Shown here one piece after another: positions 8,063-59,254 of a DNA stretch of 63,137 bases. The DNA comes from Opitutia bacterium (GTDB taxonomy: Bacteria > Verrucomicrobiota > Verrucomicrobiia > Opitutales > Opitutaceae): positions 1-63,137 of the forward strand of contig JACPPI010000023.1 of NCBI GenBank assembly GCA_016190985.1, read 5' to 3'. How positions within the stretch are numbered: position 1 is the first letter of the stretch; each line of letters starts with the position of its first letter. A model generated the notes under the pieces. That model was given only the letters and a program-made list of their open reading frames with translations, was not told the origin of the DNA and did no database searches. The position numbers were made by a program, and so were the translations under genes.

Positions 8063-8097
8063 CCGGCTGATGTCAACTATTAGTTGACATCAGCCGG
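8063..8097. repeat. Solo palindrome of the HTH-cassette family
   Basis: This is a perfect 16-bp-arm palindrome, CCGGCTGATGTCAACT with its complement around a 3-nt centre ATT, between two convergent genes. The inner TGATGTCAAC arms and CTATTAG core match the palindromes bounding the HTH cassette at 33469-33906 and the mini-element at 59177-59254. No T-run follows on either strand, so it is not a typical terminator, although it may act as one. Confidence 0.85.
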
Positions 8098-17792: not shown

Positions 17793-17816
17793 ACTTGTAA
17801 CCTGACAGGTTACAAG
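17793..17816. repeat. HTH cassette A, end palindrome (stop-codon side)
   Basis: The palindrome CTTGTAACCT-GAC-AGGTTACAAG has perfect 10-bp arms (17794-17803 with 17807-17816). The TAA stop codon of the HTH gene (17810-17812 on the minus strand) lies inside the inner arm. Its outer sequence ACTTGTAACCT is repeated inverted at the other cassette end (18167-18191). Confidence 0.9.
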
Positions 17817-18166
17817 GACAGGTCGCGGCCGGCGCGTTTCTCGGACATCCAATGCAGCATGCGCAGCAGCAGCTCGGCGTCCGGCTGCCGGGACCGCCCG
17901 CGCAGGAAATCATGGAGGCGCTGCCGCGGAATGCCGAGATACCGGGCCAGCCGAACCTTGGTGCCACGGACCTTGAGTTCAGCCCTCAGGAGGGTGGCGC
18001 AGACATTCCACATGGGCGTATCATAGCCGGGGCGGCGCGTCTTGTAGGAGCCCTTGCGCTTGGGGCGCAGGGCGAGGCGCAGACGGCGCGCGCCGGTGTC
18101 AGCCGCAACGACCAGCGCCTCACCAAGATCAATCCAGAGTCGGAGTCGCGGATGAGTGGGAATCAT
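17810..18166 (-). CDS. Small HTH protein of palindrome-bounded cassette A
   Basis: This 118-residue basic protein starts MIPTHPRLRLWIDLGEALVV. The C-terminal half holds a Cro/XRE-like helix-turn-helix: VRLARYLGIPRQRLHDFLRG (LAxxLGIxRQxLxxFLxGR), then PDAELLLRMLHW. It is clearly homologous over its whole length to the protein at 33503-33856, sharing LKVRG, LARxLG, RQ and PDAE in order and a GxDTPxWN motif before the HTH. No nuclease, recombinase or effector domain is visible. The ATG directly abuts a palindrome (18167-18191) and the stop lies inside another, so expression is likely autoregulated through these sites (inference). Codon usage and GC resemble the neighbours. Confidence 0.8.
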   Translation of the reverse strand: MIPTHPRLRLWIDLGEALVVAADTGARRLRLALRPKRKGSYKTRRPGYDTPMWNVCATLLRAELKVRGTKVRLARYLGIPRQRLHDFLRGRSRQPDAELLLRMLHWMSEKRAGRDLSL

Positions 18167-18191
18167 ACTTGTAACCTATTAGGTTACAAGT
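18167..18191. repeat. HTH cassette A, end palindrome (start-codon side)
   Basis: Perfect 11-bp arms ACTTGTAACCT / AGGTTACAAGT surround the centre ATT. The ATG of the HTH gene follows without a gap on the minus strand. Read in that direction the core is CCTAATAGG, whose TAATAG could serve as a -10 element (weak -35 TTGCGC 18 bp upstream); a promoter/operator role is inference. Confidence 0.9.
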
Positions 18192-32391: not shown

Positions 32392-32426
32392 AACCGCCGC
32401 GGAGCAATCCGCGGCGGTTTTGTTTT
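32392..32426 (+). terminator. Rho-independent terminator after SWIB gene
   Basis: The perfect 12-bp stem AACCGCCGCGGA/TCCGCGGCGGTT with loop GCAA is followed by TTGTTTT. Confidence 0.92.
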
Positions 32427-32440
32427 CCGCGTCCGCCCCC

Positions 32441-33418
32441 ATGAATCCCGCCGCCCGCGCCGTCCACATCCGCGCCGTGCTGATGCTCGTGCTCGCCACG
32501 CTCTTCTGGGGGCTGAGTTTTCCCCTGGTGAAGGCCATCGCGCTGGCCCACGCGGCGGTGCTGCCGGCGAGCGGCACCTGGTTCATCACTGCCTGCACGG
32601 TCGCGCCCCGTTTCGTGATCGGGTCGGCCGTGCTCCTGCTGGTGCTGTGGCCCAGGCTCCGCACCTGCACCCGCCTGGAATTGAAGCAGGGCGCGCTGCT
32701 CGGCCTCGCCCTCGGCGCCGGCATGCTGTTCCAGAACGACGGCCTGCAGTTCACCAGCGCCTCGACCTCGGCGTTCCTCACCCAGGTCTATGCGATCATG
32801 ATCCCGGTGTGGATCGCGTGGCGGCAACGCCGCTGGCCGCCGGCCATTGTGCTGGGGTGCTGCCTGCTGGTGTTCGCCGGCGTGGCCGTGCTCGGGCGGT
32901 TTGATTTCCGCACCCTGCGCCTTGGCCGGGGCGAGGCCGAGACGCTGCTCAGCTCGGTTTTCTTCATGATGCAGATCTTCCTCCTGGAGCGGAAGGAATT
33001 TGCCGGGAACCGCGCGCTGCCGGTCACGCTCGCCATGTTTGTCACGGAGGCCGTGATCTTCTCGCTGATGGCGCTCGGCACGGCGCCGCATCCCGCCGAT
33101 GTGCTTGTGCCCTGGGCCTCGGCGCCGTGGCTCGGGTTCACGGTGCTGCTCACGCTGTTCTGCACGCTCGGCTCCTTCATCCTGATGAACACGTGGCAGC
33201 CGAAAATCACCGCCACCGAGGCGGGGCTCATCTACTGCGTGGAGCCGGTCTTCACCGCGCTGATGGCGCTGTGCGTGCCGGCGTGGCTGTCGGCGTGGGG
33301 CGCGCTCGACTATCCCAACGAGCGGCTCACCTGGCATCTGCTGGCCGGGGGCGGGCTCATCACCGCCGCCAACGTCCTCATCCAGCTCCGGCCGCCCGCC
33401 AAACCGGCCGCCCGGTAA
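32441..33418 (+). CDS. EamA/DMT-family transporter
   Basis: The protein has 325 residues with ten hydrophobic segments, from MNPAARAVHIRAVLMLVLAT. The first EamA repeat has LFWGLSFPLVKAIALAHAAV, with LLGLALGAGMLFQNDGLQFT and STSAFLTQVYAIMIPVWIAW; the second repeat ends in TEAGLIYCVEPVFTALMALC. It is a drug/metabolite-type exporter or permease of unknown substrate. The ATG at 32441 follows the terminator of the SWIB gene. HTH cassette B begins 51 bp after the stop. Confidence 0.9.
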   Translation: MNPAARAVHIRAVLMLVLATLFWGLSFPLVKAIALAHAAVLPASGTWFITACTVAPRFVIGSAVLLLVLWPRLRTCTRLELKQGALLGLALGAGMLFQNDGLQFTSASTSAFLTQVYAIMIPVWIAWRQRRWPPAIVLGCCLLVFAGVAVLGRFDFRTLRLGRGEAETLLSSVFFMMQIFLLERKEFAGNRALPVTLAMFVTEAVIFSLMALGTAPHPADVLVPWASAPWLGFTVLLTLFCTLGSFILMNTWQPKITATEAGLIYCVEPVFTALMALCVPAWLSAWGALDYPNERLTWHLLAGGGLITAANVLIQLRPPAKPAAR

Positions 33419-33468: not shown

Positions 33469-33497
33469 GCTGATGTCAACTATTGGTTGACATCAGC
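33469..33497. repeat. HTH cassette B, end palindrome (stop-codon side)
   Basis: Perfect 12-bp arms GCTGATGTCAAC/GTTGACATCAGC surround the centre TATTG. It is the inverted copy of the palindrome at 33882-33906, including the asymmetric centre (TATTG versus CAATA), so the pair are true terminal inverted repeats. Confidence 0.92.
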
Positions 33498-33502
33498 GGT
33501 CA

Positions 33503-33856
33503 TCACGACGGGCGCTTGCCCGCCTTGCGCACCCGCAGCCACTCCTGGAGCAGGAGCACCCGCTCGGCATCGGGCATGCGGCGGCGGCTGACGAAATATT
33601 CGTTCACGGCCTGGCGTTGCACGCCGAGCAGGCGCGCGAGCTGGGCCTTCTCGCCGCGCACCTTGAGCAATGGGCGCACCTCATCGGCGAGCTTGTTCCA
33701 GAGCGGGGTGTCGGCGCCGGGACGGATCGTGGCACCGCCCGCGATGGGGCGGCGGACGGACATGCGCCGGCGGGCCGAGGCCCGGGCGCTGTCGGAAATG
33801 GCGTCAAGCAGGGCCTCCAACGGCCAGGCGCTGTAGGGGACGGGAGTATGGGCCAT
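33503..33856 (-). CDS. Small HTH protein of palindrome-bounded cassette B
   Basis: The protein has 117 residues from MAHTPVPYSAWPLEALLDAI. It is a homologue of the 17810-18166 protein along its whole length. Shared features are an Arg-rich middle (ARRRMSVRRP), PGADTPLWNKL before the HTH, LKVRGEKAQLARLLGVQRQA (LAxxLG turn and RQ), and MPDAERVLLLQEWLRVRKAG at the end. The recognition-helix region differs (QRQAVNEYF versus PRQRLHDFL in A), as do the flanking palindromes. No catalytic domain is seen. The ATG is 25 bp from the palindrome. The gene lies between two DMT transporter genes that converge on it. Roles as regulator or element-encoded DNA-binding protein are inference. Confidence 0.8.
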   Translation of the reverse strand: MAHTPVPYSAWPLEALLDAISDSARASARRRMSVRRPIAGGATIRPGADTPLWNKLADEVRPLLKVRGEKAQLARLLGVQRQAVNEYFVSRRRMPDAERVLLLQEWLRVRKAGKRPS

Positions 33857-33881
33857 GCCGCGATTCCGGTCGCCCGCCGGC

Positions 33882-33906
33882 TGATGTCAACCAATAGTTG
33901 ACATCA
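33882..33906. repeat. HTH cassette B, end palindrome (start-codon side)
   Basis: Perfect 10-bp arms TGATGTCAAC/GTTGACATCA surround CAATA. It is the inverted partner of 33469-33497, and together they bound a 438-bp cassette. No target-site duplication is obvious outside. Confidence 0.92.
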
Positions 33907-33939: not shown

Positions 33940-34803
33940 TTATCGGGCCGCGCGCCCGCGGAGCGCGGCGAGCGCGCGCCAGGTGACGGCGCCGAGAACG
34001 ATCGCGCCGCCGAGCAGCGAGAGCGGGCTGGGCTTTTCGCCGATGAGGAGCAGCACCCAGATCGGATTCAGGATGGGCTCGATGACGGGAATCAGCACCG
34101 CCTCCAGCGCGGTGACGTGCCGGATGGCGCGCGAGTAGAGCAGGTAGGGCATGCCCAACTGGAAAACCCCGAGCAGGAGCAGCGCGATGAGGCTCCGTTG
34201 GTCGGGCCAGGGCGCGGAGCACATCGCGGGCAGGCCGACCAGGAAACCCAGGATGTTGCCCAGGATCACCGCCTCGATGGTGGAGCCGGCACCCTGCTTG
34301 CGCAGCAGGACGATCATCGCGGCAAAGGATACGCCGCTGGCGATGGCGAGCAGGATGCCGGTGAGGTTGTTGAACTTCAGCCCGTCGTAGAAAAACACCC
34401 CCAGGCCGACGAAGGTGGCCGCAATGGTCCACCAGTCGGCGCGGCGGGCGCGTTCGCCCAGCAGCCACGCGCCGAGCAGCGCGACCCAGACGGGCGCGGT
34501 ATATTGGAGCAAAATGGCGTTGGCGGCGGTGGTGAGCTTGGTGGCGGCGGCGAAGAGAATGGTGCAGCCGGTGAACGCCACCGCCGTGCCGAGCTGGAGG
34601 GGCGTCCAGGTGAAGCGCAGCGTGCGGCCGCGCACCGCCAGCAGGAAGACCGCCGCGACCAGTCCGCGCCCGCCGCCGACGGCGAAGGGCGGCCAGTCCA
34701 CGGACTTCATCAGCACGCCGCCGAGGCTCCAGCCCAGCGCGGTGAGCAGCAGCAGGCCGACGGCTTTGCGATGCGCGGGGTCTGTCACGGACCGCTCGGC
34801 CAT
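33940..34803 (-). CDS. EamA/DMT-family transporter
   Basis: The protein has 287 residues with ten hydrophobic segments, from MAERSVTDPAHRKAVGLLLL. It has LTALGWSLGGVLMKSVDWPP and ILFAAATKLTTAANAILLQY in the first EamA repeat, and MPYLLYSRAIRHVTALEAVL and IPVIEPILNPIWVLLLIGEK in the second. It is only distantly related to the DMT gene at 32441. It is convergent with that gene across cassette B and starts 5 bp after the stop of the TIR-TPR gene (34809), so it is probably in the same transcript. Substrate unknown. Confidence 0.9.
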   Translation of the reverse strand: MAERSVTDPAHRKAVGLLLLTALGWSLGGVLMKSVDWPPFAVGGGRGLVAAVFLLAVRGRTLRFTWTPLQLGTAVAFTGCTILFAAATKLTTAANAILLQYTAPVWVALLGAWLLGERARRADWWTIAATFVGLGVFFYDGLKFNNLTGILLAIASGVSFAAMIVLLRKQGAGSTIEAVILGNILGFLVGLPAMCSAPWPDQRSLIALLLLGVFQLGMPYLLYSRAIRHVTALEAVLIPVIEPILNPIWVLLLIGEKPSPLSLLGGAIVLGAVTWRALAALRGRAAR

Positions 34804-34808
34804 CGCGG

Positions 34809-37133
34809 CTAATATTTGAAGGGCTGGCTGCTGGCGGGATCGGCCAGCGCCGCCTCCCAGCGCGGGAAGCCGCGCAGCGGGGAAAAATCGATGTCGTGGC
34901 GCAGCGCATGCACGCTGCTGGTCGCGGCCGTGGGGACCTTCAGCTGCGGCGCGAGCTGATCCACCGCCTTGTCTTTCTCCCCGATCCAGCTGTAAACGAT
35001 GCCCGCGTTGGCCCGGACATAATACTGCAGCCGCAAGGGCAGGCGGTCCACCTGGGCCAGCATATGATCCAGGGTCGCCAGGGTGGCGGCGCGGTCGCCG
35101 ACCAACGCCTGGGCATAAGCTAGGGAGCTGAGCAAACGCACATCGTCCGGATTGGCGACCAGCTTGGTATTCAACTGGTCGAGCACCGGTCGCACGAGGG
35201 CGGCCGCGCGGTCGCGCTGCCCCAGCACGCACAGGGCCTCGGCGTATTGCATGGTCGAATCCGCGTCGCTGAAATTGATATCGATGCCCTGCCGGTCGCT
35301 CAGCTCGACGTAGGCCCGCGCATCGCCAATCGCATGGTAATACCAGTTGAATTTGGCGGCGACGACCTTGGGGTCCAGGTGCTGTTCGGGAGTCAGCCGG
35401 GCGAGGAGTGCTTCCATCTCCTGGCGGGAGCCGCGCGCGAGAAAGGGCGCGCTCGCCAGCGCAAAGGCGGCGTCGAGGGAATCAGGCTGGAGTTCCACCA
35501 GCAGGCGGGCGTTTTGCGCCGCCTGGTCATGCTGCCGCAGATTCAACAGCGCGTTGTAGGCGCCCCACAGGACGATGGGATTGCGGGGATCGAGGGTTTG
35601 GGCCCGCCGGAGATAGCCCATCGACTCAGCCCACAGGCGCTCCTGGCCCGCCAGTTCGCCCAGCGAGCGGAGAATTTCGACATCGCCCGGAGTCAGTTGC
35701 AGGGCCCGTTCATAGAATTTGCGGGCTCCAGCCAGGTCTTCATGGGCCTCGGCGCCCAGGCCCTGCGCATGGATGACCGCCGGGTCTTCCGGGGCCAGCC
35801 GGATGGCTTGGGCGAGGGCGGCTTGACCGGCCAACAGCTGGTTGCGATCCCCGCCGGTGGTGGGGGAGCGGTAGCTCCGGAAATTCACGCGCGCCAGGTC
35901 CAGCCACGCAGGCACGAAATGGGGGTCCAACTGGACGGCGGCATGCAACAGGCGGTCGAGTTCGGGCAGGGTCGCCCGCGAAATGCCCGACCACAGGATG
36001 ATGTCGCGCGCCTTGAGGTGGCTGTTGTAGGCGTCGACGCTGGTCGTGGCGCGGCCGGCGATGATGGTTTTTTGCTGCGGCGTGATGGCGGTCTTGAGCG
36101 CGCCGGCGATCTCCGTGGCGAGCGCCTCCTGGATGGCGAAGATGTCGCTGAGTTCGCGGTCAAAGGACCTGGCCCAGACGTGCTCGTCGGTGGCGGCGCG
36201 GATGAGCTGGCCGGTCACGCGCACCTTGTTGCCGGCGCGGCGCACGCTGCCCTCCAGCACATAGGTGACGCCCAGCTCCTGCGCGATCTGCCGGATGGTC
36301 TTGGTCGTGTTGCGATACTGCATGACCGAGGTGCGCGACACGACGTGCAGTTCCGAGATGAGCGCGAGATTGGTGAGAATGTCCTCCTGGATGCCGTCGG
36401 TGAAGAAGGCGCTGTCCTTCTCCTCGCTCATGTTGTTGAACGGCAGGACGGCGAGGGACTTTTCCCTGATGGCCGGGGTGATTGGCTCCGCCGGTTTGAC
36501 TGCGACGGCCGGAGCCGATGTGACCGGAGCCGACGCGGGTTTGGCCGCGGGCCGGAACATCACGAAGGCTCCCAGGGCGAGGACGGCGACGCCGAGCACG
36601 GCCGCCGCCCAAAGGGGAAAGCCAGGCTTGGCGCTCACCACCGGCGCGGAACCGGAGACGGGCGCGGCCGGTTTGGCTCCGCCGGCGGGCTTGCGCGGCG
36701 CCGAGAGCAGGCGCTTCACCTGGTCCACGAATTGCGACGTGGGCTCGCCGCCTGGCAGGCGCGTCCACTGGGCCTTGAGGAACTGCTCGGGCACGCTGGC
36801 GGTGGTCTCGCTGGTGTCGTCCACCACCACGGGAAACAGGAACGGCATGCCGTCGGCCAGCAGATGCGTGCGCTCGGCCGCGAGCTTCCACTCGAGCCGG
36901 AAATAACCCTCGCCGCGCTGTTCGCTCTGGCTGGAGATCACCGGCATGAAGAGCGCGCACTCCTTGATCTGGCGGCGGATCTTCTGGTCCCAGGCGTCGC
37001 CGCCGCGCAGTTCGCTCATGTCGAACCAGACTTCGACCCCGAAGGCGCGCAGAGCGTCGGCGATGTGGCGCGCGGCGTCGGCATCCTCGCGGGCATAGCT
37101 GAGAAATACCGCCTTGGAGGTGAGTTCAGACAT
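34809..37133 (-). CDS. TIR domain - membrane helix - TolB-like/TPR fusion protein
   Basis: The protein has 774 residues. Residues 8-145 form a TIR_2 domain (AVFLSYAREDADAARHIADA, VWFDMSELRGGDAWDQKIRR, ALFMPVISSQSEQRGEGYFR). A Pro/Ala linker and one membrane helix (FPLWAAAVLGVAVLALGAFV, about residues 177-196) follow. Residues 225-345 match the FlgO/TolB-N-like domain often joined to cyclases (SLAVLPFNNMSEEKDSAFFT, DGIQEDILTNLALISELHVV, YVLEGSVRRAGNKVRVTGQL). The remainder is TPR repeats. No cyclase or kinase catalytic domain is present. It is probably a signalling or scaffold protein with a cytosolic TIR domain; NADase activity is possible but not shown. It is divergent from the helical gene at 37280. 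Confidence 0.85.
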   Translation of the reverse strand: MSELTSKAVFLSYAREDADAARHIADALRAFGVEVWFDMSELRGGDAWDQKIRRQIKECALFMPVISSQSEQRGEGYFRLEWKLAAERTHLLADGMPFLFPVVVDDTSETTASVPEQFLKAQWTRLPGGEPTSQFVDQVKRLLSAPRKPAGGAKPAAPVSGSAPVVSAKPGFPLWAAAVLGVAVLALGAFVMFRPAAKPASAPVTSAPAVAVKPAEPITPAIREKSLAVLPFNNMSEEKDSAFFTDGIQEDILTNLALISELHVVSRTSVMQYRNTTKTIRQIAQELGVTYVLEGSVRRAGNKVRVTGQLIRAATDEHVWARSFDRELSDIFAIQEALATEIAGALKTAITPQQKTIIAGRATTSVDAYNSHLKARDIILWSGISRATLPELDRLLHAAVQLDPHFVPAWLDLARVNFRSYRSPTTGGDRNQLLAGQAALAQAIRLAPEDPAVIHAQGLGAEAHEDLAGARKFYERALQLTPGDVEILRSLGELAGQERLWAESMGYLRRAQTLDPRNPIVLWGAYNALLNLRQHDQAAQNARLLVELQPDSLDAAFALASAPFLARGSRQEMEALLARLTPEQHLDPKVVAAKFNWYYHAIGDARAYVELSDRQGIDINFSDADSTMQYAEALCVLGQRDRAAALVRPVLDQLNTKLVANPDDVRLLSSLAYAQALVGDRAATLATLDHMLAQVDRLPLRLQYYVRANAGIVYSWIGEKDKAVDQLAPQLKVPTAATSSVHALRHDIDFSPLRGFPRWEAALADPASSQPFKY

Positions 37134-59183: not shown

Positions 59184-59254
59184 GTCAACTATTAGTTGAC
59201 ATCAACCGTGGGCGCCGGCGCGGAAGGTATGTCAACCAATAGTTGACTTAGGCT
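59177..59254. mobile_element. 78-bp gene-less element with cassette-type palindromic ends
   Basis: The terminal inverted repeats are 26 bp with one mismatch: left AGCCTAAGTCAACTATTAGT then TGACAT; right the complement with CAATA for TAATA. The inner palindromic part GTCAACT-ATT-AGTTGAC is the same type as at cassette B and at 8063-8097. Between the ends lie only 26 bp. It looks like a deletion derivative that lost its HTH gene. Confidence 0.8.

Follow-up and report, generated by a model that had tools for sequence, protein, structure and literature searches.

A putative REPIN-like population of dyad sites accompanied by a non-catalytic helix-turn-helix protein in Opitutaceae

The closest described system is REPIN/RAYT, for which the literature reports extragenic palindromes as singlets or inverted doublets with preferred spacing, a gene that is often repeat-flanked and protein-repeat co-evolution (PMC3116915, PMC8266576, PMC6006769, PMC3733652). 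Some RAYT subclasses are reported to carry HTH-like ends (PMC6006769). GTAG-type REPs were explained by a dedicated transposase, CGTC-type REPs were described as being without a known one as far as that abstract goes, and O. terrae was reported to be rich in GTAG REPs (PMC3733652); the latter are a different repeat from the sites described below. The locus analysed here combines REPIN-like sites with an HTH protein in which no transposase domain was found, a combination not found in the literature searched (titles and abstract openings). The first-pass annotation of this DNA had claimed that no described class consists of an HTH-only gene with palindromic ends, and none was found in the same literature.

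The window is the whole stretch of DNA that was analysed (63,137 nucleotides) and represents an entire contig (G000:C15) of a 2.95-Mb draft genome with 99.5% completeness. Its features are as follows.

8068-8092, no strand: solo B site between two genes; the same place is occupied in the relative G121
17794-17816, no strand: end of cassette A with CTTGTAACCT arms, overlapping the 3' end of gene A
17810-18166, minus strand: gene A, paralogue encoding a 118-aa HTH protein
18167-18191, no strand: other end of cassette A
32420-33418, plus strand: EamA transporter gene (domain scan), convergent neighbour of cassette B
33469-33497, no strand: left end of cassette B, dyad GCTGATGTCAAC-TATTG-GTTGACATCAGC, past the 3' end of HTH gene B
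33503-33856, minus strand: gene B, encoding a 117-aa XRE/lambda-repressor-like HTH protein (ORF, profile matches, model)
33882-33906, no strand: right end of cassette B, 25-bp site, exact inverted copy, 25 bp upstream of the gene B start codon
33940-34812 (scanned stretch; listed ORF 33940-35232), minus strand: EamA transporter gene, convergent neighbour on the other side
59184-59200, no strand: B site, first half of a doublet (start-to-start 47 bp)
59231-59247, no strand: B site, second half of this doublet, with outer flanks CCTAAG/CTTAGG as at many GTATAC-type sites of relatives

The left palindrome of cassette B has 12-bp arms around the centre TATTG and the right one has 10-bp arms around CAATA, and their 25-bp cores are exact reverse complements. 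As had been annotated at first, gene B is flanked by exact inverted repeats including the asymmetric centre and lies between convergent carrier genes; both of these are EamA genes. The arm TGATGTCAAC was matched exactly 7 times in the window, against 0.05 expected. The B protein was 42% identical to the A protein over 99 aligned residues (18-114), so that the homology proposed earlier stood and its extension to the full length did not quite. The arms of A and B had been called unrelated; the family alignment makes them two classes of one site, since most family sites align as GT-[AC]-A-[AC]-x / YANTR / inverted, with GTAACC in A and GTCAAC in B.

Eight HTH paralogues were found in this genome, and site-like sequences flank each of them on both sides. 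Strict palindromes are present on both sides of L016, L018, L019 and L023 and on one side only of L021 and L022, and the remaining ends, including both of L017 and of L020, are imperfect dyads as judged by eye. The HTH gene was present in 55 of 120 family genomes. A scan of named genomes, which required the motif around PGxDTPLW, yielded 82 stretches encoding HTH relatives, of which 80 were kept; all are from Verrucomicrobiota and, by record title, mostly from genera that we take to belong to Opitutaceae. Matching inverted ends (at least 13/17 matches) were detected in 93 of 122 members, a number that includes loci fetched twice (e.g. L044/L118, L055/L143, L066/L132), against 0 of 122 with base-shuffled flanks (maximum 12). 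No ends were detected in the other 29, some of them at contig edges.

At four loci, two of them in this genome, an integron integrase gene (TIGR02249, score far over the cut-off) immediately precedes the HTH cassette, and 3 of these 4 cassettes terminate on the far side in an inverted doublet of sites at 37 bp. The integrase genes are the following.

L024, 9595-10875, minus strand: integron integrase gene
L025, 9689-11107, minus strand: integron integrase gene
L117, 4467-5810, plus strand: integron integrase gene
L119, 4416-5726, plus strand: integron integrase gene

The HTH spans approximately residues 51-111 of the B protein. In the AlphaFold2 model (mean pLDDT 76), residues 51-110 reached about 87-93 and the first 50 about 57-66, and helix 3, the modelled recognition helix, was located at residues 81-88. 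HTH matches remained below Pfam gathering scores (HTH_3, 19.4 bits against a cut-off of 23), and the top Foldseek matches, the P22 c2 repressor and other XRE-type proteins, were weak (best E 0.18). PHROGs gave weak matches (best E 0.003), several of them to named transcription regulators; NCBIfam gave a single match, to a serine recombinase (E 0.06), PADLOC one match (E 0.016) and the PDB sequence search nothing below E 0.48. No transposase domain was found in the cassette protein by profile searches including NCBIfam and PHROGs, and the Y1_Tnp profile had no match to P0001 or P0002 at E<=1. A phage, plasmid or viral origin was rejected, with no match in those collections at the sensitivity used.

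That the palindromes are private to cassette B was ruled out by their genome-wide count. Sites were located by exact patterns, with decayed copies uncounted, and the B core GTCAAC-N5-GTTGAC was found at 35 places in the 2.95-Mb genome, against 1 for the reversed control. The general family site pattern was found 87 times against 3 for the control, and the classes of other paralogues, including the asymmetric GTAACG-TATTA-ATTGAC, recur among the general-pattern matches listed. Within the genus, the B core occurred in 3 of 21 genomes (35 in this one, 32 in G121 and 1 in G071). In other species, GTATAC-TATTA-GTTGAC forms the ends of several B orthologues, and GTATAC-YANTR-GTTGAC, the pattern of these orthologue ends, was present in 8 of the 21 genus genomes with up to 43 copies and none in the control (G131 43, G128 19, G071 16, G126 10, G130 9; single copies in G000, G124 and G129). 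Across the 120 genomes, the median number of general-pattern matches was 41 with the gene and 4 without it, with control medians of 2 and 2, respectively (p 7e-18); the exceptions were 5 gene-bearing genomes with fewer than 10 matches and 8 gene-less genomes with at least 15. Perfect arms of 19-23 bp, reaching into non-conserved flanks, were found at 4 of the 35 B sites (L003, L005, L014, L032), which points to a hairpin as well; either hairpin selection or palindrome-correcting mutation may account for them. In G067, a tandem array of three intact and further degenerate sites was seen at L227 (1044-1450), where G091 has one site.

Recognition of the sites by the protein was approached through covariation of 86 proteins, which were kept after removal of members with an end score below 12, L050 and duplicate proteins, and of which L044/L118 and L139 rest on 12/17 end matches. 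Mutual information selected columns such as 72, 82, 83, 87 and 93. Co-change was then counted by the Fitch method on a midpoint-rooted tree of 86 tips built without residues 66-96. DNA position 6 co-changed with residue 93 at 11 of 13 residue changes, with 2.4 expected (rank 1 of 103 columns; p 8e-8, where p-values are guides because related sequences share history). Position 5 co-changed with residues 87, 83 and 86 and position 3 with residues 85, 80 and 72 (ranks 1-3 in both cases). The co-changing residues lie in or adjoin the modelled recognition helix or are at helix 2. As to identities, an R at residue 93 is paired with C at position 6 in 30 of the 31 cases shown, a Q with T or C/T in all 13 shown and an A predominantly with G (21 of the 35 shown). 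At residue 83, R is paired with C, T or both at position 5 in 69 of 70, and A, T, Q or S with A in 15 of 16 (two of them mixed A/T). This co-change is the strongest evidence for a protein that probably reads the sites. The earlier proposal that each protein goes with its own ends thereby gained support, as protein and site classes match and recognition-helix residues co-vary with the arms, and the check named for it beforehand, recognition-helix/arm covariation, was positive on the tree lacking residues 66-96.

The 35 B sites comprised 21 between convergent genes, 10 in tandem, 2 divergent and 2 inside ORFs (33 intergenic), as assigned by a simple ORF caller with some errors (the site at 33886 was called divergent though both its neighbours are on the minus strand). 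Of the intergenic positions across 180 kb of this genome, 21% lie between convergent genes, against 21 of 33 intergenic B sites (p 2e-7). With this same baseline, 12 of 18 doublets of G131 were convergent (p 4e-5). Placement at 3' ends may fit several roles, a boundary being one of them. It sits badly with an ordinary XRE repressor that controls a regulon through operators. XRE regulators are often reported as autoregulatory with palindromic operators (PMC12565409). Such a repressor would suit the HTH_3/YdaS-like domain and the site just upstream of the start codon, but 21 of 35 sites are between convergent genes with 2 called divergent, and a second inverted copy lies past the 3' end of the gene, which makes this reading very improbable. 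Dispersed sites might instead join distant loci or mark chromosome regions by means of a chromosome-architecture protein, for which MatP/matS and Noc are the model. Dozens of sites on many contigs would agree with this, and the spaced pairs suggest dimer-dimer contact, but neither several orthogonal protein-site sets in one genome nor a 3'-end bias is expected of it, and we consider it improbable.

Both cassettes were found in the same gene context in other species. Among 109 relative loci, cassette B was located between the same two genes in 5 (L053, L072, L073, L074, L075), and for cassette A both neighbours were kept in 9 and one neighbour in 3 (L099, L124, L135); no cassette insertion or empty site was seen among the relative loci compared. 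The earlier reading, that the cassette moves with its own ends, gained no support, as the same loci are occupied across species and the supposed ends are members of a site population spread over the genome. In favour of a mobile cassette are the inverted sites at its termini and the eight paralogues of this genome, but the kept positions of A and B, the lack of a detected transposase domain and the lack of a relative in the phage, plasmid and viral collections at that sensitivity speak against it, and mobility of the cassette itself is hardly credible.

Single sites were likewise compared between this genome and G121. Seventeen of the 35 B sites, at 14 places, have a counterpart site in G121, which for site 33886 is a one-base variant; the comparison covered regions around the sites of G121 itself, with 18 other sites of this genome outside its placement. 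At 13 shared places the 17-bp core was 95.5% identical, which is largely built in because the sites were found by an exact search pattern; outside the pattern, identity was 89% in the adjacent 6-bp arms and 50% in the 20 bp beyond them (ungapped and hence a minimum), with p 1e-4. A search for clean empty sites of plain palindromes between the two genomes gave none among eight loci. L032 has a decayed copy as its counterpart in G121. At L036 the half-site is GTATAC in G121 and GTTGAC in this genome, with a similar outer flank, a difference that would fit change in place. One of the two genomes has an additional gene at L041; at L037 the left flank alone was aligned and no exact site was seen, and L013, L038 and the window site 59184 were aligned by one flank only. 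For site 2022 of L154 against L192, gene content differs where the counterpart place lacks a site. The gene end that carries a B site here (L009) has two sites of other classes in G121 (L310, G121:C99), and different protein-site sets may therefore use one gene end. At L015 (1501-2298), two B sites about 780 bp apart correspond to one in G121 (L175); a copy of the 3' end of the neighbouring gene follows each site, and the insert is toxin-antitoxin-like by eye.

B sites are mostly single in this genome, with 29 of 35 having no partner of at least 16/17 matches within 90 bp, and three doublets at 37 or 47 bp start to start; the outer CCTAAG/CTTAGG that accompanies GTATAC was fully present at one doublet, partly at the second and absent at the third, which would likewise fit change in place. 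G131 has 3 single sites and 19 doublets in both orientations, with spacings of 35-38, 43-47, 58 and 67-68, and 12 further spacings were taken from G071, G126, G128 and G130, pairs above 120 bp being left out. At a period of 10.5 bp the Rayleigh p was 3e-7 for the doublets with GTATAC outside (17) and 1e-3 for the other type (14). The former value is carried largely by 12 of 17 spacings at 37-38, and periods of 9.5 to 11 fit about equally; the best period of the latter is 10.5-11. It is possible that some doublet pairs share descent. Spacers of equal length in G131 were no more alike than shuffled ones (0.37 versus 0.32 +- 0.03 for six of 20 bp; 0.47 versus 0.42 +- 0.05 for three of 30 bp), and at one orthologous doublet of G131 and G071 the sites and spacing were kept and the 20-bp spacer had diverged. 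Because positions are kept, arms are conserved over diverging flanks and doublets are phased over unlike spacers, the cassette was not read as a self-mover. In REPINs, too, ends are reported to be conserved, spacers to be less so and lengths to be fixed (PMC3116915), so the likeness in spacers and ends does not by itself separate selection from mobility.

Movement of sites was seen in another form. In G067 and G091, which represent one other genus and whose shared regions are 90-98% identical (13 of 20 G067 regions matched one in G091), 12 of the 16 loci selected for alignment, distributed over 10 places, were copies of a MITE of about 117 bp with GTCACGTATTACGTGAC at its centre. The MITE (e.g. 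L220, L224, L244, L252) has TATTACTCTGTTA-like terminal repeats and is bordered by CTAG at either side, with the HTH site in the middle. A 4-bp CTAG duplication is an IS5-type target. At two empty sites the target read CTAG or TTAG, and the filled counterparts are flanked on either side by CTA/CTAG; a further length difference lies near the second. Since filled and empty MITE sites are found in G067/G091, sites can spread as MITE passengers.

The clean insertion of this MITE is also what a selfish REPIN-like population might offer, in which sites or doublets would be copied by an enzyme acting in trans (of Y1/RAYT type or another transposase) with the HTH protein as an end-recognising accessory. 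Spaced doublets, the repeat-bracketed gene and its few copies match REPIN/RAYT anatomy, Y1_Tnp genes were present in 9 of 9 genomes tested, and the spacer trend noted above is shared with REPINs as reported. Nevertheless, the HTH-type site was absent from 9 of 9 Y1 loci examined (9 of 46 matches), the GTAG tag was not enriched near the sites, G131 spacers resembled each other no more than shuffled ones, arms are conserved while flanks diverge, and the GTATAC half-site of G121 at an orthologous GTTGAC place fits change in place; we hold this explanation to be unlikely. Within 20 bp, GTAG was present at 3 of the 35 B sites (background 4.7), CGTC at 11 (background 12.7) and GGAG at 16 (raw count). 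Identity with GTAG or CGTC REPs was rejected, as neither tag is enriched near B sites, and so was an HTH broken off from a RAYT C-terminus, the HTH profile being unmatched in the ORFs of 9 Y1 loci.

The reading that we regard as probable is that the binding sites form a REPIN-like population, located for the most part where genes converge, that would be served by a non-catalytic HTH protein and have a boundary role. Anatomy, site population, covariation, positional conservation and preferred spacing can be read directly in the sequences; dimer binding, autoregulation and a boundary function at gene ends are inferences that go beyond them. A small lambda-repressor/XRE-type protein would bind the dyad of about 25 bp with one monomer per half-site, and doublets would hold two dimers on one helix face. 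The cassette ends would be two inverted copies of one site around the gene, of which the upstream copy could permit autoregulation. Dozens of extragenic copies would be kept, mostly where genes converge, and there the bound protein most likely forms a transcription boundary or roadblock, perhaps together with the hairpin of the site. Each paralogue would serve its own site class, with protein and sites shifting specificity together, and the cassette would be inherited at fixed loci without self-movement while sites may hitch-hike on the MITE.

When REP-like anatomy is accompanied by a protein that does no more than bind DNA, the spread of repeats can be told apart from their retention, and the function of extragenic palindromes, a long-standing question, becomes directly testable. 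Many natural orthogonal protein-site pairs with a simple recognition code would be available in the family, which also connects the evolution of repeats and of regulators with gene ends, in a phylum that has been little studied.

Compared with known systems, XRE/lambda-repressor regulators share a palindrome upstream of the gene and probably the HTH region, whose structural matches to P22 c2 and its relatives are weak, but the sites here are at gene ends rather than promoters, one stands on each side of the gene, and many private paralogue-site pairs exist. MatP/matS and Noc/NBS are nucleoid organisers with dispersed sites, and short dispersed palindromes apparently served by one small protein would resemble them, whereas several orthogonal sets per genome, a site-bracketed gene and the convergent-gene bias do not. 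MITEs and IS with a 4-bp CTAG duplication are matched by the MITE on which the site rides in G067/G091, but no such MITE was noticed incidentally in this genome, and, unlike an autonomous transposon or IS, the HTH cassette encodes no transposase. CGTC REPs are similar as extragenic palindromes without a known dedicated transposase, but their tag is not enriched here and a cognate protein gene exists. REP/RAYT is resembled in a gene flanked by repeats that are also dispersed in extragenic DNA (33 of 35 B sites intergenic) and in inverted doublets at preferred spacing (19 in G131, only 3 in this genome), and it differs in that the protein here is XRE-like without a Y1/HUH match and that B sites lack GTAG/CGTC enrichment. 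On balance we lean slightly towards a second, independent REPIN-like genome symbiosis, composed of a non-catalytic HTH protein and private dyad sites in several orthogonal pairs per genome with a readable amino-acid-to-base code. By analogy, the DNA side would work like a REPIN population and the protein side would be a repressor-like binder without the transposase that defines the known system.
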